From: a virus
Virus record (IMG/VR): IMGVR_UViG_3300042197_003251
Coordinates: 17,018-81,017 of that record
Strand: one strand, 5' to 3'
DNA length: 64,000 bases
Shown: positions 1,969 to 46,213 of the stretch, piece after piece
How positions within the stretch are numbered: position 1 is the stretch's first letter
Layout of the letters: each line of letters opens with the position of its first letter
Notes under the pieces: generated by a model
What the model was told of the DNA's origin: nothing
What the model saw: only the letters and a program-made list of their open reading frames with translations
Databases searched by the model: none
Translations under genes and position numbers: made by a program

Positions 1969-3849
1969 TTATTTTGCCGAAACTTCCTCAAAATCCACAT
2001 CCTGGACTTCAGAGTTTGCATCACCTGTCATATTTGAAGCCATATCTTGAGCTTGTTGATACATCTTCATTGAAATATCTTGGAAGGTCTTATTTGTTTT
2101 TTCAACACATTCTTTGATTTTTTCAATGTTCTTGTCGGCGTTTGCCTTTTTAAGTTCATCAAGACTTTCATTAATTTGGGTTTTTTCTTCTTCTGAAATT
2201 TTATCTTCCAAATCTTTTAATGATTTTTCAACTTGGAATACAGTTGCGTCCCCAGTGTTAATTGTTTCAGCTTCTTCTTTTGCCAATTTATCTGATTCAG
2301 CATTTGCTTCAGCCTCTTGTTTCATCTTTTCAATCTCTTCTTTTGATAGTCCTGAAGATGATTCAATTCGGATATTTTGTTTTTTGTTTGTTCCCTTATC
2401 AAGAGCTGATACATTTATAATACCATTTGCATCAATATCAAACGATACTTCAATTTGCGGAACACCTCTCATTGATGGTGGAATTCCATCAAGGTGGAAC
2501 CTTCCGATTGTTCTATTGTCTTTCGCCATTGACCTTTCTCCCTGAAGAACGTGAATTTCAACTGATGGTTGATTATCAACTGCGGTTGAAAATACTTGGG
2601 AAGCTTTGGTTGGAATTGTTGTGTTTGCATTTATAAGTTTTGTAAACACTCCGCCCATCGTTTCAATTCCAAGTGATAATGGTGTTACGTCAAGAAGAAG
2701 AACATCTGTTACATCACCAGCAAGAACCCCTCCTTGAATTGCCGCTCCAAGAGCAACAACTTCATCAGGATTAACTCCTTTTGATGGTTCTTTTCCGAAG
2801 AATTTCTTAACCGCATCTTGAATTGCCGGAATACGAGTTGAACCTCCAACCAAAATAATCTCATCAATATCGCTGATTTTTAGATTTGCATTTGCCAATG
2901 CTTTTTTACAAGGTTCAATAGTTCTTTGAACTAATGGGTCAACAAGTTGCTCAAATTTAGCCTTTGTTAATGTTCTAACCAAGTGTTTTGGAACACCATC
3001 AACTGGCATAATGTAAGGAAGATTAATTTCTGTTGATTGTGAAGATGATAATTCAATCTTTGCTTTTTCTGCCCCTTCACGAAGACGCTGAAGAGCCATT
3101 GAATCTTGTGTTAAATCAATACCATTTTCATCTTTAAATTCTGAAACAAGCCAATCAATAATTGACTGGTCAAAGTCATCACCACCAAGATGTGTATCAC
3201 CATCGGTTGATAATACCTCAAACACACCATCACCTAAATCCAAAATGGATACATCGTGAGTTCCACCACCACAGTCAAATACAACAATTTTTGAATCTTT
3301 TCCTTTCTTGTCAAGTCCATACGCAAGTGCTGCTGCTGTTGGTTCATTAATGATACGTTTTACTGTAAGTCCCGCAATTTCACCAGCTTCTTTTGTTGCC
3401 TGTCTTTGGGCATCGTTAAAGTAGGCCGGTACTGTAATAACCGCCTCTGTAACTTCTTGTCCCAAATAATCTTCTGCGGTTTGTTTCATCTTTTGAAGAA
3501 CAATTGCCGAAATTTCTTGGGGGCTATACTTTTTGTCATCAATTTGAACTCTTGGTGTATTACCCTCACCTTTAACTACTTTATAAGGAACTCGTTTTGC
3601 TTCCTTTTTTGTTTCATCATAAGATGACCCCATAAAACGTTTAATTGAATTAACAGTTTTATCAGGATTTGTGACCGCTTGTCTTTTTGCTGGGTCACCA
3701 ATCTTTCTTTCACCACCTTTTGTAAATCCTACGATTGAAGGGGTGGTTCTTTTTCCTTCACTGTTCGCAATAACTTTAGGTTCTCCGTTTTCCATAACGG
3801 CTACACATGAATTTGTAGTTCCTAAATCTACACCAATAATTTTTCCCAT
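1969..3849 (-). CDS. dnaK: molecular chaperone DnaK (Hsp70)
   Basis: A full-length 626-residue Hsp70. The ATPase domain starts [19 protein letters not shown] and contains the phosphate-2 signature [15 protein letters not shown] and the adenosine motif [13 protein letters not shown]. The substrate domain follows with [20 protein letters not shown], then an acidic C-terminal lid tail ending in [10 protein letters not shown]. It would fold proteins in the cytoplasm with a DnaJ partner; a dnaJ gene lies at 30755-31681, but no grpE was seen. The wording ([27 protein letters not shown]) resembles Bacteroidetes DnaK, so capture from a host is likely. It is a single-gene unit with its own terminator. 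DnaK in a phage is uncommon but known in some large phages. Confidence 0.97.
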
Positions 3850-4024: not shown

Positions 4025-4318
4025 TTAATTTAAAATAATCATAAAATTAGTAACGGTTAGTACCATAAATATTAAAGGGTACCAATCACTTCTTTCAATT
4101 TGTTTTTTAGGTTTTAGACTTATTTCACCTTTTTTATTTGTAATAGTTTTATAATTAGTCATAGGAAAAACATTGTAATTCACATTAACTTCATCAAAAC
4201 TAACAACCGCGGCTTTTAACTTTTTTACTCTATTTGACATTTCTAAGTTAGATGCATGTATAACTGAATCTTTTGTAATTTTTACAGTAGTACTATCAAT
4301 CCAATTACTTTGATTCAA
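4025..4318 (-). CDS. unknown protein with C-terminal membrane segment
   Basis: A 97-residue protein I do not recognise. Residues 1-75 are soluble and rich in Lys, Ser and Val; the last 20 residues (YPLIFMVLTVTNFMIILN) form one hydrophobic segment, so it may be a tail-anchored membrane protein. Its start overlaps a degenerate homing endonuclease on the other strand, so the N-terminus may have been lost or reshaped by that insertion. No promoter was identified. Confidence 0.5.
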   Translation of the reverse strand: MNQSNWIDSTTVKITKDSVIHASNLEMSNRVKKLKAAVVSFDEVNVNYNVFPMTNYKTITNKKGEISLKPKKQIERSDWYPLIFMVLTVTNFMIILN

Positions 4319-7334: not shown

Positions 7335-7628
7335 CTAATCTTGGTAAGTAAAATCTATATTAACTGATAGGGGTAAATTCGCAATATCCTCATTACAAGT
7401 AAATCTGCCAGTATCACCGACTATAAAAATAATTTTCATAAGGTCATTATCTTGTAAGTCTGAATCCGTTTTAATGAAAACATTTGTCTTAAATATTCGT
7501 CTATCTTCATCGTCAGACCATAGATAAACACCTTTATCATATTCAATATCAAGAACTTCAGTTTTTTCAAACTGCTTCTTAACTTGTGAATTAATTATTT
7601 TGATATAATTTTTACTTATTTTATTCAT
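7335..7628 (-). CDS. small unknown protein
   Basis: A 97-residue protein starting MNKISKNYIKIINSQVKKQ. The open frame extends six codons further upstream, but those codons are the -7 promoter element (TATATTTG at 7633-7640), so the start at 7628 is preferred. The second half is rich in beta-strand residues and ends in LPLSVNIDFTYQD. No family was recognised. Confidence 0.6.
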   Translation of the reverse strand: MNKISKNYIKIINSQVKKQFEKTEVLDIEYDKGVYLWSDDEDRRIFKTNVFIKTDSDLQDNDLMKIIFIVGDTGRFTCNEDIANLPLSVNIDFTYQD

Positions 7629-7632
7629 AGAG

Positions 7633-7664
7633 CAAATATACGGCAAAAAAAATGGTGAGCCAAA
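7633..7664 (-). promoter_or_regulatory. Bacteroidetes-type promoter
   Basis: TTTG, 20 nt, TATATTTG on the minus strand. The -33 element lies inside the hairpin that ends the upstream tRNA transcript, so terminator and promoter overlap. Confidence 0.7.
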
Positions 7665-7672
7665 AGCTCACC
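7646..7672 (-). terminator. rho-independent terminator of the tRNA transcript
   Basis: On the minus strand GGTGAGC-TTTTG-GCTCACC is followed by ATTTTTTTTG. It closes the transcript that starts at the tRNA promoter (7889-7919). Confidence 0.8.
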
Positions 7673-7679
7673 TTATTTT

Positions 7680-7782
7680 TATAGTCCATAGTGTTCACAT
7701 TTACCACTACGGAAGATTACGACCAGTCAAGTTGTGATTCTTACTTTATGTTGCCCGCAACAGGTGCAATCTACTTCTATAG
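7680..7782 (-). other. structured 3' extension of the tRNA transcript
   Basis: About 100 nt between the tRNA and its terminator with no gene. On the minus strand there is a GTTGC-GG-GCAAC hairpin and an 8-bp stem, CCGTAGTG with CACTATGG, that needs a G-U pair and so favours the minus strand. It could be a small RNA cut from the tRNA precursor or a degenerate second tRNA; no complete cloverleaf was found. Confidence 0.35.
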
Positions 7783-7855
7783 TTGCAACTGAAGGATTCG
7801 AACCTCCGACCTTCAGGTTATGAGCCTGACGAGCTGGCCTCTGCTCTAAGTTGCG
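7783..7855 (-). tRNA. tRNA-Met(CAU), probably initiator tRNA-fMet
   Basis: A complete 73-nt cloverleaf on the minus strand: acceptor CGCAACT/AGTTGCA, D-stem GAGC/GCTC, anticodon arm TCAGG-CTCATAA-CCTGA, variable AGGTC, and T-arm GGAGG-TTCGAAT-CCTTC. Two hallmarks of bacterial initiator tRNA are visible: the first acceptor pair is a C1 x A72 mismatch, and D-stem pair 11-24 is A-U (purine-pyrimidine). The initiator's three G-C pairs at the base of the anticodon stem are present at two of three positions (29-41 is A-U). CCA is not encoded. It has its own promoter (7889-7919) and terminator (7646-7672). Confidence 0.88.
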
Positions 7856-7888
7856 ATGTAATAGTTAAACATTAAATATCTAACAATA

Positions 7889-7919
7889 CAAATATACTAA
7901 TAATTTTCACATTTGTCAA
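7889..7919 (-). promoter_or_regulatory. Bacteroidetes-type promoter for the tRNA
   Basis: TTG, 20 nt, TATATTTG on the minus strand, 33 nt upstream of the tRNA 5' end. Confidence 0.7.
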
Positions 7920-7967
7920 TTTTTTTTAAAAATCGGTATTTTACTTTTTTTACGGATATTTATTAAT

Positions 7968-8123
7968 ATGAGACCAAGATTAGACGAAACAAAAAAAAGA
8001 GTTAAAGTATCAATAACTCTTAGTCAAAAAATTAATAATAAATTAGAAGGAGACATAATTAACAAATCAAAATTAATTGAAAAATTATTATCGGATTACT
8101 ATGGTAAAAAAGATTTGCAGTAA
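7968..8123 (+). CDS. small ribbon-helix-helix DNA-binding protein paired with an HNH nuclease
   Basis: A 51-residue protein with a basic N-terminus, one beta strand (KVSITLS) and two helices, ending KLIEKLLSDYYGKK. This is the layout of MetJ/Arc-type ribbon-helix-helix proteins, which bind DNA as dimers. Its last 23 nt overlap the start of the HNH gene in the +1 frame. Two more genes of this type (29463-29615 and 46194-46355) also sit directly before a homing endonuclease. It may repress the cassette or act as a separate DNA-binding subunit of the nuclease. Confidence 0.7.
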   Translation: MRPRLDETKKRVKVSITLSQKINNKLEGDIINKSKLIEKLLSDYYGKKDLQ

Positions 8124-8784
8124 ATGTAGTATCGAAAAAAATACTAATGAGTTTCAAAAAAACAAATACTCCAAAGATGGATTCAGAAGTGAGTGCTCTG
8201 AGTGCTCCAAAAAAATAAAGAAACTAAAATCTAAAGAACTTATTAGAGAAGAATCAAAAAGATACAGAGAAAAAAATAGAGAAAAATTAAAGGAAAATTT
8301 CAAAATTTATTATATAAATAATAAGAAAAAAGAAAACGAACGAAGTAAAAAATATAGAGAAAAATTAAAAAACAACAAAGAAAATGCGTTACCAGTAAAA
8401 AAAGAACCGTCAGTTCCTTGGAGGGTGAAAAACAAAAATTTGTTCAATAATAAAAAAAAAGAAAAATATCAAAAAGATATCATCTTTAGGTTATCAACAA
8501 ATCTTAGAAATAGGTTGAATAATTTTCTTAAAACAAAAGGTTATAATAAAAATAGTAAAACTTTTGAAATTATAGGTTGTTCCCCTCAACAACTATTAGA
8601 ACATTTAGAAAACCAGTTTGTACCAGGTATGAGTTGGTCAAATAGAAATGAATGGCATATTGACCATATTATCCCCTTATCTTCAGCTAAAGATGAATCT
8701 GAAATATATAAATTATCTCATTACACAAATTTACAACCGCTATGGAAGGTGGATAATCTAAAAAAGGGTTGTAAGTTAATTTAA
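8101..8784 (+). CDS. HNH homing endonuclease
   Basis: A 227-residue protein. Residues 1-35 form a zinc-ribbon-like module (CSKCS...CSECS), followed by a very Lys-rich coiled segment to about residue 120. The C-terminal HNH core reads NEWHIDHIIPLSSAK, with metal-binding HIDH, and then HYTNLQPLWKVDNLKKG. A start at 8101 is chosen because the RHH gene ends 23 nt downstream and the first Cys pair follows directly. It is closely similar in layout to the HNH protein at 45593-46213. Such enzymes cut an intronless or insertion-free allele and promote copying of their own gene. Confidence 0.85.
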   Translation: MVKKICSKCSIEKNTNEFQKNKYSKDGFRSECSECSKKIKKLKSKELIREESKRYREKNREKLKENFKIYYINNKKKENERSKKYREKLKNNKENALPVKKEPSVPWRVKNKNLFNNKKKEKYQKDIIFRLSTNLRNRLNNFLKTKGYNKNSKTFEIIGCSPQQLLEHLENQFVPGMSWSNRNEWHIDHIIPLSSAKDESEIYKLSHYTNLQPLWKVDNLKKGCKLI

Positions 8785-8789
8785 CGAAG

Positions 8790-9675
8790 CCTGAGATTAC
8801 AGCTTTTATTGAGTACCTTTAGAGTCATTATTTTTTCTACTCTTATCCACAAGATTTTGTCTTGTATTACTCATCGCCAATTGGTTAGGCCAATCAATCC
8901 TTGACGATACAACTACTCTCTTACTACTCAGCTCTCTTTGAGAATGCCTTCCCAATTAATCCTTGCGAGATTAGAGGTTTTTCGTAAAAATACAGTTCAA
9001 CTTGGGGTCTCACTATGCTCAGAACATCTCTAAGCTATGTGGGCGACTTCCGTTGTACCGTGATGGACACTTTTCCTTTAATTATTTGTAATAATTTAAG
9101 TTTTGTGTCGTGGATGTGTCAGAGTAGTGGTCCACCGTAAGCTCCGTCTCCTTTTGGGCGACAGAATACTAAACTACTCCGTGAAATATCCCTATTTCCA
9201 TACTCTCAGATTACTTCATAAAGTGACCTTGGTAGGTCATCCTTAGGGGTAGTAGCGACACCACTCGTTCTCTACCTTACCTTTCGGTTTTAAGTACCCT
9301 TTGGTATTGGGACCCGCAATTGTGTAGTTGGAGCTACATTTCTTGCTTGGTTCCTATGGGTTATTCTTGTTGGTGTTCCCACCTCAACCTGACAATCCAC
9401 TTTGCCAAGTCACCTGACCACTTTCCCTACAGTGTTACCCTCGGTACTAAAGGTCTTGCGATATCCCACTTGTGTACTTGAGTTCAAATCCCCTTTCGGG
9501 TTTTTAAACCGCAACCTCCTCAACACGGGGGAAGTCACTTTATCCTACTTTCGTAGTTTATTTAAAGACCATACACGGCCCATTATCGTTTATCAGTTAT
9601 CATTATCCCGAAGGACTACTTTCACTGAATGGATAATCTAACTTTCAAAGAACTTTTCGGACATTTCCGATTTCG
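8790..9675 (-). ncRNA. giant structured non-coding RNA (candidate GOLLD/ROOL-class)
   Basis: About 885 nt with no convincing reading frame, less AT-rich than its surroundings and full of hairpins. The minus strand is favoured: it alone gives CCC-GAAA-GGG (9490-9502), ACC-GAAA-GGT (9279-9288), TCC-TTCG-GGA (9606-9615) and GCTTAGA-GATGT-TCTGAGC (9017-9035), where the last needs a U-G pair. Further stems are ACAAGA-CAAAA-TCTTGT (8849-8865) and ATTGG-CCTAA-CCAAT near 8880. Three promoters lie upstream at 9681-9912. Length, phage setting and a nearby tRNA resemble the GOLLD and ROOL RNA classes, but I could not check their covariance models; a new class is possible. Both ends are approximate. Confidence 0.7.
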
Positions 9676-9680
9676 TTTTA

Positions 9681-9712
9681 CAAATTTAAGTCAAATTTTT
9701 CGTTCTGTCAAA
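9681..9712 (-). promoter_or_regulatory. Bacteroidetes-type promoter, proximal to the giant RNA
   Basis: TTTG, 20 nt, TAAATTTG, then GTAAAACG. It would start RNA near 9675 and is the best candidate for the 5' end of the structured RNA. Confidence 0.7.
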
Positions 9713-9780
9713 TTTTTCTTAAACTTTTTTTGAGATTTTGGATTTTTCATCGTTTATGAACCTTCATCTCAAATGTTTTA

Positions 9781-9812
9781 CAAATTTACTATCTTTTCTT
9801 TCGTATGTCAAG
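9781..9812 (-). promoter_or_regulatory. Bacteroidetes-type promoter, middle of three
   Basis: TTG, 20 nt, TAAATTTG followed by GTAAAAC on the minus strand, pointing at the giant RNA. Confidence 0.65.
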
Positions 9813-9882
9813 TACTTTTGTAATTTTTTTTTAGATTTAACTTCCGAGTATCTTTCATTACCTTTAGGTGTCAAATCTTTTA

Positions 9883-9912
9883 CAAATGTAAGTATAAATA
9901 TTGTCAGAACAA
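9883..9912 (-). promoter_or_regulatory. Bacteroidetes-type promoter, distal of three
   Basis: TTG, 19 nt, TACATTTG followed by GTAAAAG on the minus strand, just downstream of the NUDIX gene stop. Confidence 0.6.
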
Positions 9913-9918
9913 GCAAAA

Positions 9919-10311
9919 TCAAAAAATTATTTTCAAAATAAATTTTTTTAAACTTTCAATCATATTAAGGTCTTCTATTTCTTTTCTTGTATAATAATTA
10001 CATTCTGTATGTTCATAACCATCCATTGCTTTATTTAAGTCAGGTTGGATTTTTGAATCTGTTTCAAATAAAAATATATGCATTATTTTTTTAACTCTAC
10101 CCTTTTTTAAATTTTTAATTCTTCCCAAATATTTTATCTTGTCCGTTATTTCCAAGTTTGTTTCTTCATAAAACTCTCTATATGCACATTCAAGTGGAGT
10201 TTCACCTTCTTCCATATGACCCATAGGAATTGCCCAAGAACCATCATCCGACCTTTGACAAATTAACAATTTGTTACCACTTTTTACGGCAATTCCCGCA
10301 GTTTCTTTCAT
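9919..10311 (-). CDS. NUDIX hydrolase
   Basis: A 130-residue protein from the start at MKETAGIAVKSGNK. An upstream extension to 10389 is possible but would run through the divergent promoter region and into the next gene. The NUDIX box is GHMEEGETPLECAYREFYEE (residues about 35-54), matching G-x5-E-x7-RE-x2-EE, with Asn in place of the usual last Gly. NUDIX enzymes hydrolyse nucleoside diphosphates linked to another group, for example oxidised nucleotides or mRNA caps; the substrate is not evident. It is divergent from the DUF192 gene. Confidence 0.88.
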   Translation of the reverse strand: MKETAGIAVKSGNKLLICQRSDDGSWAIPMGHMEEGETPLECAYREFYEETNLEITDKIKYLGRIKNLKKGRVKKIMHIFLFETDSKIQPDLNKAMDGYEHTECNYYTRKEIEDLNMIESLKKFILKIIF

Positions 10312-10322
10312 TTTTTTTCGTA

Positions 10323-10334
10323 TATTTATAAATA
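10323..10334. promoter_or_regulatory. palindromic TATTTATAAATA box between divergent genes
   Basis: TATTTATAAATA reads the same on both strands and so offers a box to both the NUDIX gene (15 nt to its ATG) and the DUF192 gene (box adjacent to its ATG at 10334). Confidence 0.4.
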
Positions 10335-10684
10335 TGTTTGTAAAAATAAATAACGACATTAATTTAAAAGTAAAAACTTGCATCTCCAAAAATGAAATAT
10401 CAAAAGGGATGATGAATAAAAGATTTAGGGATTTTGATGGAATGTTATTCTTTATGGGTCCTGATAGTCATTGTTTCTATATGAAAAATTGTATTATACC
10501 CCTTGATATTATTTTTATTGATTCAGATTTAACAATATTAAAAATTTTTGATAATTGTCCTCCATGTATGGAAGATGAATGTGAACATTATTGCGCCGAC
10601 GGCAAATATGTTTTGGAAGTCCCTGGTGGTTTTTGTGAAAAAAACAATATAACCGAAGGTGATATGTGTTCCATAGAATTTTAA
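10334..10684 (+). CDS. DUF192 family protein
   Basis: A 116-residue protein with the DUF192 pattern: KGMMNKRFRDFDGMLFFM, then CFYMKNCIIPLDIIFID and a C-terminal KYVLEVPGGFCEKNNI. The family is found in bacteria and phages; its function is not established. An insert CPPCMEDECEHYC with five cysteines and a histidine (residues about 76-88) is unusual and could bind metal. The start at 10334 is chosen over an upstream ATG because the latter would run through the box shared with the NUDIX gene. Confidence 0.8.
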   Translation: MFVKINNDINLKVKTCISKNEISKGMMNKRFRDFDGMLFFMGPDSHCFYMKNCIIPLDIIFIDSDLTILKIFDNCPPCMEDECEHYCADGKYVLEVPGGFCEKNNITEGDMCSIEF

Positions 10685-11281: not shown

Positions 11282-12647
11282 CAAATTCATTTTGCAACAT
11301 CTTTAAAAACTTGATGTATGCGGCATCTTCTTTTTCGGGGTCATATTTGTATTTTCCTTGTGGTGGTCTTTTTGCTCTTCCAAAGAAATTAAGACCAGAT
11401 ATATTGGTTATACACTTATGACCTCCACTATTTGCTTGAATAATGTCCCAAGCCGGTACTGAAATTTTATCAAGAGCTTCCCATTCATTTTCATCCAATT
11501 TTTCAGATGGTTTTTCCATTAAGTTTTTAATCTCAAGAAGATATTTTGTCCCATTTTCCATATCCAAAAATTTTTCTCCATAAATGGCGGCAAAATCTTT
11601 AAATGTGAACCCGACTGAATCTTCACCTATGCTTCCTTCTGAAACCCATTTTATTGTTGATAATGGAACTTTTCTATCTTTTAATTGACCTTCCCATTTT
11701 GATAATACTTCTTGAGCAATATCACCAAGATTAACTCCCTTTAATTCCCTTTCTTTTTTAAATGGATTACACGATGCTTGTAGAAGCCCTAATGGCCATG
11801 CAATAACAAGAAAATCTGCTTCAGGGTTGTTTCTAAATGGTGTATATCTATCATAAGAACCTGGTTTTATCATACTACCTCCACCATATTGAACTATAAT
11901 ATTGTCCTGAACGCTGGGGTATGATTTCATTCTTTCAACATAATCTTCTTTGTTTTTTTCAAGTGATTGTAAATTAGCATAACCTTTTTCTTCCATTATT
12001 TCCTTAATCTTTAAAAATAAATTAAGGAGTGAAGGTTTTGACTCCATAACAAGTCTCTCAAGAAACTGAGGTTTGTTTTTAAATGCCAGTAATAATTTAT
12101 TGGTAACTAAACCAAGCATCATTCTATTTTTTCTTGCCGATATGTCTTTGTCAAACTTATAAACATAATTCATCACAATCTCAGGTGTAATTTCATTTTT
12201 GGCAAAATCGGCGCTGTCAACCATTGAAATTGTTGCAACGTCTTCTGGCGTAAAAATTTCACTAGGTGAAACTATTTGGGATATGGTTTCAACGTTTGAC
12301 CTAGCTTGTCTGAAACTAGTAGTTTGGGTTTCTTCAGCGCCTGCCTGTCTATCGTGGTGGTCCAAGTGAATTTGAAACATTGGTTTTCCGTGAGCAAAAT
12401 CACATAAACAATAAAGAATTTTTTCGTTGGGGTCTGATTTTTTAAGTGACCATTCTTTATCCCCGTATTGTATAACTTGAGCTCCTATTACTTTAAATCC
12501 ATATTTTTCAAAGTAACTTTTCATTCCCAACCCACTGACCACTCCATCCAAATCTTGGTGAAACACAATCATTACCTTATCAAACTCTTCTCGTAGTTTA
12601 TTAATATTTTTAAGTCCTGATTCTTTAATTAGCATTTTCAATTTCAT
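11235..12647 (-). CDS. DHH/DHHA1 family phosphoesterase
   Basis: A 470-residue protein. The DHH domain shows FHQDLDGVVS (motif I) and IHLDHHDRQAGA (DHH motif, residues about 93-104). Near the C-terminus SGGHKCITNISGLNFFG is a DHHA1-like substrate-binding block. Relatives include RecJ and oligoribonuclease-type NrnA, so a role in degrading short nucleic acids is plausible. The N-terminus MKLKMLIKESGL carries an I-K-E site at residues 7-9, like the other leader proteins here. The upstream HNH gene overlaps its start by 23 nt. Confidence 0.85.
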   Translation of the reverse strand: MKLKMLIKESGLKNINKLREEFDKVMIVFHQDLDGVVSGLGMKSYFEKYGFKVIGAQVIQYGDKEWSLKKSDPNEKILYCLCDFAHGKPMFQIHLDHHDRQAGAEETQTTSFRQARSNVETISQIVSPSEIFTPEDVATISMVDSADFAKNEITPEIVMNYVYKFDKDISARKNRMMLGLVTNKLLLAFKNKPQFLERLVMESKPSLLNLFLKIKEIMEEKGYANLQSLEKNKEDYVERMKSYPSVQDNIIVQYGGGSMIKPGSYDRYTPFRNNPEADFLVIAWPLGLLQASCNPFKKERELKGVNLGDIAQEVLSKWEGQLKDRKVPLSTIKWVSEGSIGEDSVGFTFKDFAAIYGEKFLDMENGTKYLLEIKNLMEKPSEKLDENEWEALDKISVPAWDIIQANSGGHKCITNISGLNFFGRAKRPPQGKYKYDPEKEDAAYIKFLKMLQNEFVKILQEKIESSKNQG

Positions 12648-13389
12648 TAATTTTTAAAGAGCATTTTATTCCTTTCTTTAGATTTTCTTTTGCCGGAATT
12701 ACTTCCAAATTTTTAACCCCACCAATTAATTCAGGAGATATGTTATTTTTAAACCCTTCATAAATTGAGAATTTGTGGTCCAAATGGAAATTTTTACCTC
12801 TTCTATATCTATTTGGATTTATCTCATTTCTGTTTTTTATATAGTTTTTTTCGGAATAATACCAAACAAGAAAATAATACCGTTCCCACCCTTCCTTATT
12901 CTTAATAGAATTTTCTAATTTATTATTCTCGTAACATACTCTACATCTTTTACCTTTATTCCAATTGTTCCAAGTTGTGGTCAAATTGTGGTTTTTATTG
13001 CAAATAATATTCATTTTAAACTGCGATTTATTATTTGCAGAATTATATTCATCTTCCGTTGTTAGTAATTTATATCCAGAATCAACTATAGACTTTTCAA
13101 AAAAATTAAAAGGAATAAAATTATTTTTTACTTTATATTCAGAATATCGGCTCCTACAAGACCTACACATTTGTTTATCTAATGTATTAAGATATGTGTT
13201 ATGATTAAAAAAAACTTTTGATTTTGTAGTTTCTAGTTTACAAGAATTACATTCATCACAGTAATATCTGACCGTCCATCCTGTTTTTTTTTCTGAAACC
13301 ATTTTTTCAATAGAAACTAGTTCATAGTTTGAGGTCGTTTTAACCCCATTAATCATAGTAAATTTAGGTTTCCAAATAGAGTGAATCAT
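12625..13389 (-). CDS. HNH homing endonuclease
   Basis: A 254-residue protein with several Cys pairs (CDECNSC, CRSC, CRVC) that probably hold zinc and repeat through residues 45-140. The C-terminal HNH-like core is FHLDHKFSIYEGF, followed by GGVKNLEVIPAKENLKKG, a pattern common in phage HNH nucleases. Its 3' end overlaps the DHH gene start by 23 nt, so translation of the two may be coupled. Unlike three other homing genes here, it has no RHH partner; the gene just upstream is Dps-like. Confidence 0.8.
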   Translation of the reverse strand: MIHSIWKPKFTMINGVKTTSNYELVSIEKMVSEKKTGWTVRYYCDECNSCKLETTKSKVFFNHNTYLNTLDKQMCRSCRSRYSEYKVKNNFIPFNFFEKSIVDSGYKLLTTEDEYNSANNKSQFKMNIICNKNHNLTTTWNNWNKGKRCRVCYENNKLENSIKNKEGWERYYFLVWYYSEKNYIKNRNEINPNRYRRGKNFHLDHKFSIYEGFKNNISPELIGGVKNLEVIPAKENLKKGIKCSLKINEIENAN

Positions 13390-23440: not shown

Positions 23441-24100
23441 TTATATTTTTTTCCATCTAATATTTGTCCTAATTTCTTGGAAAAGTCCTTTTCTTATTTC
23501 AGGATAAATTTCAGATAATTGTTTATTTGTTAAACCTTCAGATATCTTATCTTTTATATCTTTTATTATTTCTATTTTTATTTTTGATTTTGCCTGTGTT
23601 TTTTTTCTTATATTTTCTTCTCTTTGAACCCTTTCTTCCGCAGTAAGATTTTCCCAACCTTTTTTTACTGACAACTTTCTTTTATTTTTTTCTTCTTCAG
23701 CTCTATCCCCATATAAAACCTCATATGTTTTATTTTTATGAGAATTACCGTTTTTTGTATTTTCAGAAATTTTTTTTCTTGTCGTTTCAGAATGTTTATA
23801 ACCTAAACATCCTTCACCACCAGTTGTCGTATTTAAACCATTTTCAAAAGTACCTAAATTTTTAATATAAAATTGCTCCATTTGATAAATTTTATCTATA
23901 TCACACTCCTCAATTAATTCTATCCTAAAATTTTCTAATCCATACTTTCTAATAGAGTTACAAAATTTTGTATTTGAGTCAGTATTTAAACATCTATAAA
24001 AGTGCTCATTCAGTCTTTTAGTTAACGAATAAATTGTACATCCCACATATTGCTTACCATTAACCTCATTTATTACTTTATATATTTTTCCCGAGTCCAT
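23441..24100 (-). CDS. GIY-YIG homing endonuclease
   Basis: A 219-residue protein. The N-terminal GIY-YIG domain reads GKIYKVINEVNGKQYVGCT (GIY and YIG replaced by KIY and YVG), then LTKRLNEHF with the catalytic Arg, and a Glu in YQMEQFYIKNLG. A NUMOD3-like motif GYKHSETTRKKIS follows near residue 100, and the C-terminus (EGLTNKQLSEIYPEI) looks like a helix-turn-helix. This matches Seg-type freestanding homing nucleases of T4. There is no RHH partner. It sits directly before thioredoxin. Confidence 0.9.
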   Translation of the reverse strand: MDSGKIYKVINEVNGKQYVGCTIYSLTKRLNEHFYRCLNTDSNTKFCNSIRKYGLENFRIELIEECDIDKIYQMEQFYIKNLGTFENGLNTTTGGEGCLGYKHSETTRKKISENTKNGNSHKNKTYEVLYGDRAEEEKNKRKLSVKKGWENLTAEERVQREENIRKKTQAKSKIKIEIIKDIKDKISEGLTNKQLSEIYPEIRKGLFQEIRTNIRWKKI

Positions 24101-28699: not shown

Positions 28700-29479
28700 T
28701 TATTTAAATTTTTCTTTTTTTCTTATTAAGAAGTTATCTTCAGATGAATTATACAAAATATTTTTAATTATCTCAATGTCTGAGGCGGAATTAATCTGAA
28801 TTACGTAAATATTATTTTTTTTACTGATTTTTGGTTTTTTAATAACCCCATTATCATTAAAATACCCCAAAATCCAAGTTAAAACTTCTTTAGTACCTAA
28901 TAAAGTAAATTTTAATCTTCCGTTGTATTTTCCGATACTTCCATCACCATCAAAATAACCTCTAATAAAATGGCTAATGAACTCATTTTCTAACTTTGGT
29001 GGCAATAATATTAAACTTTTATTTGTCACACACCCTAAATTAATTAAATCGTCCGCCATTTTTGAACTATTAATTTCTAATTTATAACTTAAAAAATTGT
29101 CTTTAATACTTTTTCTAAGTTTATAATTTGAATTAAGGTCTTTGATAAATTTTTCTATTAGATATTCGTCTCCATTTTTTAAAGATATTCCAACAACACC
29201 ACCTTGTTTATGTTTACCATTACATTGTTTTCTTTTTCTGACATATCCATCCGCATATAATAAACCTAACCAATACGCCTTTTCATTACTATCAATCTTT
29301 TCAAAATAATCTTCATTACAATCATATTTACGTATTCTAGATTTGATATTTTGTTTAATTAAAATATTTCCAATACTCCAAGGGCTAACACTATACTTTT
29401 CAGATAAAAATTTGTAACTGTTACCTAACAAATATTCATTGCAAATGTTAATACAATCAATTTCACTTAATCTTTTCAT
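28700..29479 (-). CDS. LAGLIDADG homing endonuclease with N-terminal helix-turn-helix
   Basis: A 259-residue protein with both LAGLIDADG helices: AYWLGLLYADGYV (near residue 72) and HFIRGYFDGDGSIGKYNG (near 172). Each supplies one active-site Asp. The first 50 residues (NICNEYLLGNSYKFLSEKYS, VSPWSIGNIL) look like a helix-turn-helix that would read the target site. It overlaps an upstream RHH gene by 17 nt in the +1 frame and ends 1 nt before the Dam-like gene. Confidence 0.93.
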   Translation of the reverse strand: MKRLSEIDCINICNEYLLGNSYKFLSEKYSVSPWSIGNILIKQNIKSRIRKYDCNEDYFEKIDSNEKAYWLGLLYADGYVRKRKQCNGKHKQGGVVGISLKNGDEYLIEKFIKDLNSNYKLRKSIKDNFLSYKLEINSSKMADDLINLGCVTNKSLILLPPKLENEFISHFIRGYFDGDGSIGKYNGRLKFTLLGTKEVLTWILGYFNDNGVIKKPKISKKNNIYVIQINSASDIEIIKNILYNSSEDNFLIRKKEKFK

Positions 29480-30754: not shown

Positions 30755-31681
30755 CTACAATCTGGTGTGTTTAACATATAATCTGACATACAAGTCCCCA
30801 TTCTCATTTGGGTAACCTTTTCCTTTAACTTTAAGTGGAACGCTTGTGTCCACAGTTTGTGGCATCTTAATTTTTAGTTCTCCGTGTGGATGCGGAATTT
30901 TAATCTCATCCAAATTCAAATCATTTATTGATAAGAAATTATTAAAAACCAAATCACCGGCGACTTTTTCAAAACCATCTTGTTGATTAACATTAATTTT
31001 GAAAATCATATCTCCAAACATTCCATTTGCAAAATCTCCCATAGATTGCGCTCTAACCAATTGTCCATCAGAAACTCCAACTGGTAAATTCATGCTTATT
31101 GTTTGATGTTCATCAATTCTTCCATCACCTCCGCAATGATTGCAAGTTGATTTAAAATGAAACCCTCTTCCACCACATGCCCCACAAGCTGTTTGAATTA
31201 TGTTTTGCATAAAATGATTTCCAACTCTTTGCATAATCCGGCCAGAACCTCCACAGTTTGAGCAGGTTTGTCTTTCCCCTCCTTGCCCACCACAAGGGTC
31301 ACAATTTATTTTTCTTGTAAAATTAACATCAATTTTCTTTCCCAAAAATGAATCAACCGCTCCAACCTGAATGTCCATAACTCTGTCTGGTGCTCTTCTT
31401 TGTTGTTGTCCCCCAAAGATATTTGAAAATATGTCAAACGGATTTCCGCCCCCACCCATATCAAAACCAAACTGACTAAAAGGATTGTTGTTTCTATTAT
31501 CATATTCATTTTTTTTCTGTTCGTCTGACAGAGTTGAATAAGCTTCATTAATTTTTTTAAATACGTTTTCGTCCCCACCTTTATCAGGATGAAATTCTTT
31601 TGATTTATTTCTAAACGCTTTTTTTATTTCATCTTGTGTTGCGGTTTCCTGAACCCCAAGAATATCATAATATGTTTCCAA
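30755..31681 (-). CDS. dnaJ: co-chaperone DnaJ (Hsp40)
   Basis: A 308-residue DnaJ. The J domain is complete (YYDILGVQETATQDEIKKAF, with HPD in EFHPDKGG near residue 32). A Gly/Phe-rich linker with FDMGGGGNPFDIF follows. The zinc domain has the CxxCxGxG type repeats CDPCGGQG, CSNCGGSG, CGACGGRG and CNHCGGDG, all four present. The C-terminal substrate domain is shorter than in host DnaJ. It would stimulate the DnaK encoded at 1969-3849, about 27 kb away; together they form a phage chaperone pair without a visible GrpE. Confidence 0.95.
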   Translation of the reverse strand: METYYDILGVQETATQDEIKKAFRNKSKEFHPDKGGDENVFKKINEAYSTLSDEQKKNEYDNRNNNPFSQFGFDMGGGGNPFDIFSNIFGGQQQRRAPDRVMDIQVGAVDSFLGKKIDVNFTRKINCDPCGGQGGERQTCSNCGGSGRIMQRVGNHFMQNIIQTACGACGGRGFHFKSTCNHCGGDGRIDEHQTISMNLPVGVSDGQLVRAQSMGDFANGMFGDMIFKINVNQQDGFEKVAGDLVFNNFLSINDLNLDEIKIPHPHGELKIKMPQTVDTSVPLKVKGKGYPNENGDLYVRLYVKHTRL

Positions 31682-38964: not shown

Positions 38965-39783
38965 TTAAAGATAGTCAAAAAGGGTTGATGACTCATTTCT
39001 TAACTTGCGAAGTCCTCTTTCTTTAATTTGCCTAACCCTTTCTTTTGTTAAGTTAAAATCCATCCCTATGTCTTCAAGTGTTCTCGGTGTTCCCGATAGT
39101 CCATAGTAATCCATAATAATGTTTTTTTCTCTATCATCTAAAACATTAAGTATTTCCATAAGACCTTCTTTAACTTGTTTATCACTATTAAAAACATGGT
39201 CGGGTCGGAGTGAGTCTTTATTCTCAATTAGGTCAATCAAGGTGTCCCCATCTTCATTAATATTTGTTTCAAGATTAATTACCGAAGGTAAGTTTAGGAA
39301 CCTGTCATCCATGTCTCCACCTGATTTTTCAACCCTTTTCTTTTCCTTATGTAGGTCTTGTACTACATTGACGGGAATTCTAATTGTTCTGGAATTTTCA
39401 TTCAAGGATTGAAGGATTGATTGTTTAATCCACCAAACTGCGTATGATATAAATCTCAAGTTTTTGGACCAATCAAAACTATTAATTGCCCTCATAAGTC
39501 CAATATTACCTTCGGCAATTAAATCAGACAAATCAACTCCCTGATTTTGATATTGTTTTGCGATTGTAATAACGAACCTTAAATTACCTTCAAGCAATTC
39601 TTTTTCAATCTCTTTCTTTTCATTAAGCGAAATGTTTCCTGATTGAATTAGTTTTGATAATTCTTTTTCCCTTTCAGGTGTCATTACCTTAATTCTCCTC
39701 AATTCTTTAAGGTAATATTGAATTTCGTCTTGGTTAATTGCGGACACCATTTTGTCCTGTGTTTCATCCTTTTGAGTACTCAT
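38965..39783 (-). CDS. RNA polymerase sigma factor, sigma-70 family
   Basis: A 272-residue sigma factor with regions 1.2 to 4: QDEIQYYLKELRRIKVMTPE, LRFVITIAKQYQNQGVDLSD, ISYAVWWIKQSILQSLNENS (region 2.3-2.4), an RIPVNVV region 3 and ALEDIG-type region 4 here reading RTLEDIGMDFNLTKERVRQI. It looks like a trimmed RpoD/RpoH-type factor. It would direct host RNA polymerase to a phage promoter class; the TATTTATA boxes in this window are the obvious candidates. Its start overlaps the upstream gene by 20 nt. Confidence 0.95.
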   Translation of the reverse strand: MSTQKDETQDKMVSAINQDEIQYYLKELRRIKVMTPEREKELSKLIQSGNISLNEKKEIEKELLEGNLRFVITIAKQYQNQGVDLSDLIAEGNIGLMRAINSFDWSKNLRFISYAVWWIKQSILQSLNENSRTIRIPVNVVQDLHKEKKRVEKSGGDMDDRFLNLPSVINLETNINEDGDTLIDLIENKDSLRPDHVFNSDKQVKEGLMEILNVLDDREKNIIMDYYGLSGTPRTLEDIGMDFNLTKERVRQIKERGLRKLRNESSTLFDYL

Positions 39784-45592: not shown

Positions 45593-46213
45593 TTAAACTA
45601 TTTTATCACTTTTTTTATAATTTTCTTCGGCCCATAAAGGTTGTAAATTAGTATAGTGACACAAATTGTAAATCTCCTCCTCTGACTTTGCGGTTGATAG
45701 CGGTATTATGTGGTCAATGTGCCATCCATAAAATCCGTAATTATCCCAAGACATTCCATCTTTGAATTGTTTTTCAATATGTTCTTTAACAATTTCAGGT
45801 GTCGCTCCGACTATATCAAAAGTTTCATTATTTTTATTTATTTTTTTAGTTTTTAAAAATAATTTTAACCTATTTCTAATATTTGTTTTTAATTTGAAAA
45901 TTAAATCATTATTATATCGGTTTTTTTCTCTTTTTGAAATTTTACTTCTATTATTTTTTCGGTATTCTTTTTCTTTTTCAGAATATTTTTTGTGTTTTGC
46001 CTTGATACGTAATAGTTCTTTATCATGGTTTTTATAGTAATACTTTTTATAACCTTCTCTTTTTTTTTCTATATTTTTTAAATAATATTCTTTGTGATAT
46101 TTTCGTCTACACATTTTGCATTTAGACATAATACCAATTTTATTTCTACTATCTTTGTCAAACTCACATATATTTTTTTCTTCCCCACATTTTTTACAAA
46201 TTTTTGTTTCCAT
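45593..46213 (-). CDS. HNH homing endonuclease
   Basis: A 206-residue protein with the same layout as the one at 8101: a zinc-ribbon start KICKKCGEEKN...CKMCRRK, a Lys-rich middle and an HNH core FYGWHIDHIIPLSTAKS, then HYTNLQPLWAEENYKKSDK. The two are clearly paralogous. It overlaps the upstream RHH gene by 20 nt in the +1 frame and ends 1 nt before the RecB-like gene. Confidence 0.87.
   Translation of the reverse strand: METKICKKCGEEKNICEFDKDSRNKIGIMSKCKMCRRKYHKEYYLKNIEKKREGYKKYYYKNHDKELLRIKAKHKKYSEKEKEYRKNNRSKISKREKNRYNNDLIFKLKTNIRNRLKLFLKTKKINKNNETFDIVGATPEIVKEHIEKQFKDGMSWDNYGFYGWHIDHIIPLSTAKSEEEIYNLCHYTNLQPLWAEENYKKSDKIV

Follow-up and report, generated by a model that had tools for sequence, protein, structure and literature searches.

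A GOLLD RNA of a likely Bacteroidota phage behind tandem promoters and a boxA-like leader, as in rRNA operons

The closest described relative of the RNA reported here is the env-38 GOLLD RNA. According to its structural description (Kretsch et al. 2025, PMC12286853), env-38 forms a cage of 14 chains, in which the 5' domain of the RNA is the cap domain and a disordered linker lies in the interior. The leading published idea on the GOLLD cage is that it encloses a cargo. The same paper describes an RNA cage for ROOL, which is also phage-borne and found near tRNAs. GOLLD RNAs are themselves often located near tRNAs, and a rise of expression in phage lysis counts as a trait of the family.

Ribosomal RNA (rrn) operons with a boxB-boxA leader are the second point of comparison. 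There, promoters are followed by a hairpin, by boxA and then by a long structured untranslated RNA. BoxA elements also stand at CRISPR arrays. Further cases outside rRNA, suhB among them, have been described, and GYTCTTTAANA is the gamma-proteobacterial boxA consensus (Baniulyte et al. 2017, PMC5725501). No report linking GOLLD with boxA or antitermination was found in a search of a limited part of the literature, and priority is uncertain.

The window, that is, the whole stretch of DNA analysed here, is 64 kb long. It comes from an IMG/VR virus record of 81,017 bases, which places the RNA in a phage or prophage setting. A reading made from the sequence only had described a giant structured non-coding RNA on the minus strand and had likened it, by layout alone, to GOLLD and ROOL. 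The likeness to GOLLD was borne out by the Rfam scan which that reading had proposed. The match to RF02032 covers model positions 1-416 of 416 and scores 300.2 bits (E 2.5e-86), twice the gathering score of 150. The RF02032 model describes the 3' domain of GOLLD only; the 5' domain was delimited by homology. The features of the locus are listed in Table 1.

Table 1. Features of the GOLLD locus and its surroundings, in window coordinates
Feature	Position	Strand	Basis or remark
tRNA-Met (CAT)	7782..7855	-	ARAGORN; Rfam (7783-7855)
Endonuclease VII/HNH-like ORF	8077..8784	+	phrog_1035, E 5e-22; convergent, ends 4 nt from GOLLD 3' end
GOLLD RNA, conserved 3' domain	8788..9181	-	Rfam RF02032, model 1-416
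A/T-rich variable linker within GOLLD RNA	9072..9106 (approx.)	-	Alignments; poorly alignable
GOLLD RNA, 5' domain	9182..9580	-	Homology and covariation among 30 phage GOLLDs
Leader, transcribed according to the proposal	9581..9680	-	Alignment; poorly conserved save boxA and flanking hairpins
boxA-like element GTTCTTTGAAA	9643..9653	-	Sole copy in the 64-kb window
Leader hairpin TCGGA-AATG-TCCGA	9657..9670	-	boxB-like position, directly 5' of boxA
Proximal Bacteroidota-type promoter TTTG-N20-TAAATTTG	9681..9712	-	
Second tandem promoter	9781..9811	-	
Third tandem promoter	9883..9912	-	

The conserved RNA runs from about 9580 to 8788 on the minus strand and is about 793 nt long. The extent first proposed, 8790-9675, had the region right; its boundaries are now refined to this conserved part plus a leader of about 95 nt that starts near 9675. 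The models for ROOL, OLE and HEARO do not reach gathering score anywhere in the window and give no match up to E 1 at 7600-10000, and these families were rejected as the identity of the RNA. The tRNA noted nearby is tRNA-Met, located on the strand of GOLLD about 930 nt downstream of it. Besides GOLLD, it is the only RNA family that reaches the Rfam cut-off in the 64-kb window.

The minus strand of the stretch folds far better than dinucleotide shuffles (z -6.5, 0 of 20), and the plus strand barely better (z -1.95). Thirty divergent phage homologues, 49-75% identical to the window, were aligned, and L014, a much closer relative, was left out. The consensus fold comprises 227 pairs, with 93.6% of cells paired and 159 pairs changed on both sides. 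Shuffling gave 77.7% of cells paired and 105 such pairs. Sliding the partners gave 37-44% and 60-93 pairs, a control that somewhat overstates the contrast because the structure was derived from that same alignment. Even so, the surplus of two-sided changes is large. The L21a loop, assigned by position and sequence rather than by superposition, carries the dinucleotide GC in 15 homologues and CG in 14, with one unaligned. PMC12286853 reads this switch of a self-complementary dinucleotide as covariation that supports the inter-chain kissing loop B8. Helix 7, which would join the invariant GAGUA in the 5' domain to the terminal loop at the 3' end, is mostly invariant and is not claimed here; in the published structure (PMC12286853) this terminal loop (L27) pairs elsewhere.

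The GNRA loops recognised by the sequence-only reading sit in covarying stems. Its UUCG hairpin (about 9605-9616) falls within the variable leader and is lost in L014, which excludes it from the conserved RNA. The stretch 8790-9675 is without a gene of note on either strand, as had been stated, the only open reading frame being one of 79 codons' worth of protein (79 aa). None of the 30 homologues has an ORF conserved in position or frame, and a protein-coding region was rejected. The full-model Rfam match, the covarying fold and the L21a switch together identify the minus-strand RNA, at the level of sequence, as a member of the RF02032 GOLLD family, a known family that forms 14-mer RNA nanocages. 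The RNA itself thus belongs to a known family, and its proposed mode of expression is the new part.

The RNA shares with env-38 a 3' domain matched at full length, a two-domain architecture with a variable linker, phage origin, a nearby tRNA-Met and the GC/CG switch. The two are similar in size, at 793 nt for the conserved part here and 833 nt for env-38. In contrast to env-38, the tRNA-Met lies 3' of the RNA with an endonuclease gene between them, and the locus has tandem promoters and a boxA-like leader, neither of which is mentioned in the passages of PMC12286853 consulted. ROOL is unrelated in sequence and fold.

The endonuclease VII/HNH-like ORF is a mobile gene and not part of the RNA. 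A homologue with 85% identity occupies the same place in L014 (3394-4095), and a 42-43% identical endonuclease is found there in another GOLLD lineage (L094, 1316-1879; L097, 3692-4288). In the near relative L013 the endonuclease is absent and its place is taken by a tRNA-Met. The junction of GOLLD and tRNA seems to be a site of repeated insertion. Further homing-endonuclease-like genes occur in the window at 45593-46213, 28700-29479, 23441-24100 and 12625-13389, all on the minus strand; the first encodes a paralogue of the endonuclease beside GOLLD, with 45% identity. The phage also encodes a full-length DnaK (Hsp70, Pfam E 8.5e-260; 1969-3849, minus strand) and a DnaJ (30755-31681, minus strand).

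Pattern scans of IMG/VR yielded more than 100 further GOLLD candidate loci. The Rfam GOLLD cut-off was passed by all 27 loci of the first scan, by all 11 loci of a mixed set, gathered later from phage records and contigs, and by two uncultured phages of 635-642 kb. Both GOLLD domains align throughout in relatives of the window's clade. Exact-pattern scans of bacterial genome contigs found no relatives of this clade, a result that does not imply absence of GOLLD in bacteria. L084, a viral contig of 14.5 kb, has GOLLD pattern matches at 10329-10360 (plus strand) and 4161-4192 (minus strand), which are possibly two copies or an assembly artefact.

Bacteroidota promoters have the consensus TTG, about 20 nt, TAnnTTTG. 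Sequences of the form TTG-N19/20-TAnnTTTG occur at 9711, 9811 and 9912, in tandem and about 100 nt apart. The earlier statement that three promoters precede the RNA on the minus strand was correct, and these are probably the same three. Two or three promoters stand within 460 nt in 54 of 72 homologues, compared with 0.2 in shuffles. Because of the promoter type, the host is most likely a member of the Bacteroidota. The window also encodes a sigma-70-type factor with regions 1.2, 2 and 4 (38965-39783, minus strand), which could act on the tandem promoters.

Upstream of GOLLD the alignment is poor except for the block GTTCTTTGAA. The motif was counted in 114 loci whose 5' domain could be recognised; clustering at 80% RNA identity grouped them into 17 lineages. 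The exact motif GTTCTTTGA occurs no more than 150 nt upstream in 13 of the 17, where 0.04 would be expected from first-order Markov shuffles, and in none of them in a control segment of equal length farther upstream. The loose form TTCTT[TA][GA]A is found in 15 lineages (1.0 expected, 5 in the control segment). Two of the four lineages that lack the exact motif are without even the loose form; one of these, L003, begins just after a tRNA. A search that assumed no motif returned GTTCTTTG and TTCTTTGA as the joint commonest 8-mers in the leaders, and the choice of the motif thus did not depend on the eye alone. Permuted motifs are absent from the leaders. The block differs at one position from the gamma-proteobacterial consensus GYTCTTTAANA; the divergent GOLLD of L126 carries GTTCTTTAACA, which matches it perfectly. 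A hairpin lies 5' of boxA in 26 of 32 distinct leaders and is formed by 13 different complementary stems.

The promoter series, the predicted hairpin and the boxA-like element stand in the order known from rRNA operons. Furthermore, of 11 Bacteroidota rRNA operons on plasmids, 8 have GTTCTTTGA 123-222 nt before 16S: those of Persicobacter, Aureibacter, two Segatella, two Prevotella, Rufibacter and Hymenobacter. In several of these leaders the element is downstream of TAnCTTTG-like promoters. The exact motif was not found in the plasmid-borne rrn leaders of Flavobacterium and Chryseobacterium. The two kinds of leader differ in what lies downstream, which is a phage GOLLD in one and rRNA in the other, and the binding of Nus factors to the GOLLD leader would follow by analogy. 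An antitermination role of the boxA-like element can be inferred from the same analogy.

Viral loci totalling about 1.24 Mb contain 78 distinct promoter-boxA units. ARAGORN placed 7 before tRNA and 2 before tmRNA genes, and 56 are at GOLLD, a share inflated because the loci were fetched for holding GOLLD. Among the unclassified units, that of L023 precedes a tmRNA confirmed by Rfam, and further tmRNA genes are found in this group. The units other than those at GOLLD are also mostly at stable RNA genes, and their distribution indicates a preference for such genes. The promoter and GTTCTTTGA stand directly before a phage tmRNA, which starts a few bases after boxA, in L023 (7386-7773), L041 (about 855), L063 (about 6503), L095, L107 and L046; some of these tmRNA genes were recognised by their 5' sequence alone. 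The suhB-type and CRISPR elements share with these units a position outside rRNA. They differ in that boxA here precedes a giant phage RNA and, in the same phages, also tmRNA and tRNA arrays.

BoxA is not shared by all members of the GOLLD family. None was found near GOLLD in the Acinetobacter phages Herod, Ab15 and YMC13/03/R2096 or in the Streptococcus phages Javan565, 584 and 636, and boxA as a family-wide feature was rejected on these grounds. In those phages GOLLD lies inside tRNA arrays, or a tRNA starts 7-11 nt past its 3' end. In the roseophages DSS3_MAL1 and MD18, whose GOLLD is part of a tRNA-GOLLD-tmRNA cluster, GCTCTTTGACA lies about 110-130 nt ahead of the first tRNA in the cluster. 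The same GCTCTTTGACA is found in a Ruegeria rrn leader 303 nt before 16S, and no match of this type was found in a Sulfitobacter rrn leader or in the Ensifer and Sinorhizobium plasmid operons. These occurrences are no more than suggestive. In both roseophages (L149 and L150, respectively) a tRNA-Arg falls within the span of the GOLLD 3' model, and the tmRNA is also hit by the Rfam model for permuted tmRNA.

It is quite likely that the GOLLD RNA of this presumed Bacteroidota phage is made as rRNA is, from tandem promoters and a boxA leader, and then forms a 14-chain cage. RNA polymerase would start at the tandem host-type promoters, and boxA in the nascent leader would recruit NusB and NusE (ribosomal protein S10), as in rRNA biology. 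The modified polymerase would resist Rho along the 0.9-kb untranslated transcript and would support its folding, as with rRNA. The product would then fold and assemble into a cage of 14 chains holding the linkers inside, if it follows the env-38 structure.

BoxA could instead act by titration, drawing host Nus factors off rRNA transcription, and serve as a takeover device rather than as an aid to GOLLD synthesis. A multi-copy phage transcript with boxA would be expected to bind NusB and S10; nevertheless, the single boxA at the 5' end of the RNA, behind a promoter and a hairpin as in rrn operons, fits a role in cis, and titration is improbable. Less likely still is that the GTTCTTTGA block belongs to the GOLLD fold and pairs elsewhere in the RNA instead of signalling antitermination. 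The block is within the predicted transcript, and in the minimum-energy fold of the single sequence its partner is a far-off segment of the RNA. However, its spacing to the 5' domain ranges widely across homologues, from about 16 to 112 nt, neither L003 nor the GOLLDs of other hosts have the block, and tmRNA and tRNA genes are also preceded by it together with the same promoter. An equally slight chance attaches to GTTCTTTGA being a general promoter feature of these phages, a start-site or 5' UTR element with no special relation to untranslated RNA. A promoter does stand shortly upstream of the motif in 68 of 71 boxA leaders, as scored on the TAnnTTTG part. Nonetheless, the motif follows just one of the 25 promoter-like matches in the window, that proximal to GOLLD, and the promoter-boxA units of other loci are mostly before stable RNA genes. 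Least credible is mere common descent of closely related phages: many loci do come from related metagenomes, but lineages below 80% RNA identity keep the motif while the adjacent leader is scrambled, and the stems beside it change sequence yet stay paired.

Synthesis from an rRNA-type leader is accordingly preferred among these readings, and it probably extends beyond this locus. Bacteroidota phages would express GOLLD, tmRNA and tRNA arrays from rRNA-like units of tandem promoters and boxA, such that the RNA of the GOLLD cage is made by the machinery that the host reserves for ribosomes. Phages of other hosts would reach the same end with GOLLD inside tRNA arrays, in roseophages with the boxA-like GCTCTTTGACA ahead of the array.

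GOLLD is one of the largest natural assemblies made of RNA only. The conserved rRNA-type leader suggests that full-length GOLLD has to be made quickly, and probably in large quantity, for the phage, and it ties GOLLD to the tmRNA and tRNA module. The leader is also a defined handle, through boxA mutants and dependence on Nus factors and Rho, by which the level of GOLLD could be altered and its role in infection asked. BoxA would thereby be extended to stable RNAs of phages outside the proteobacteria.
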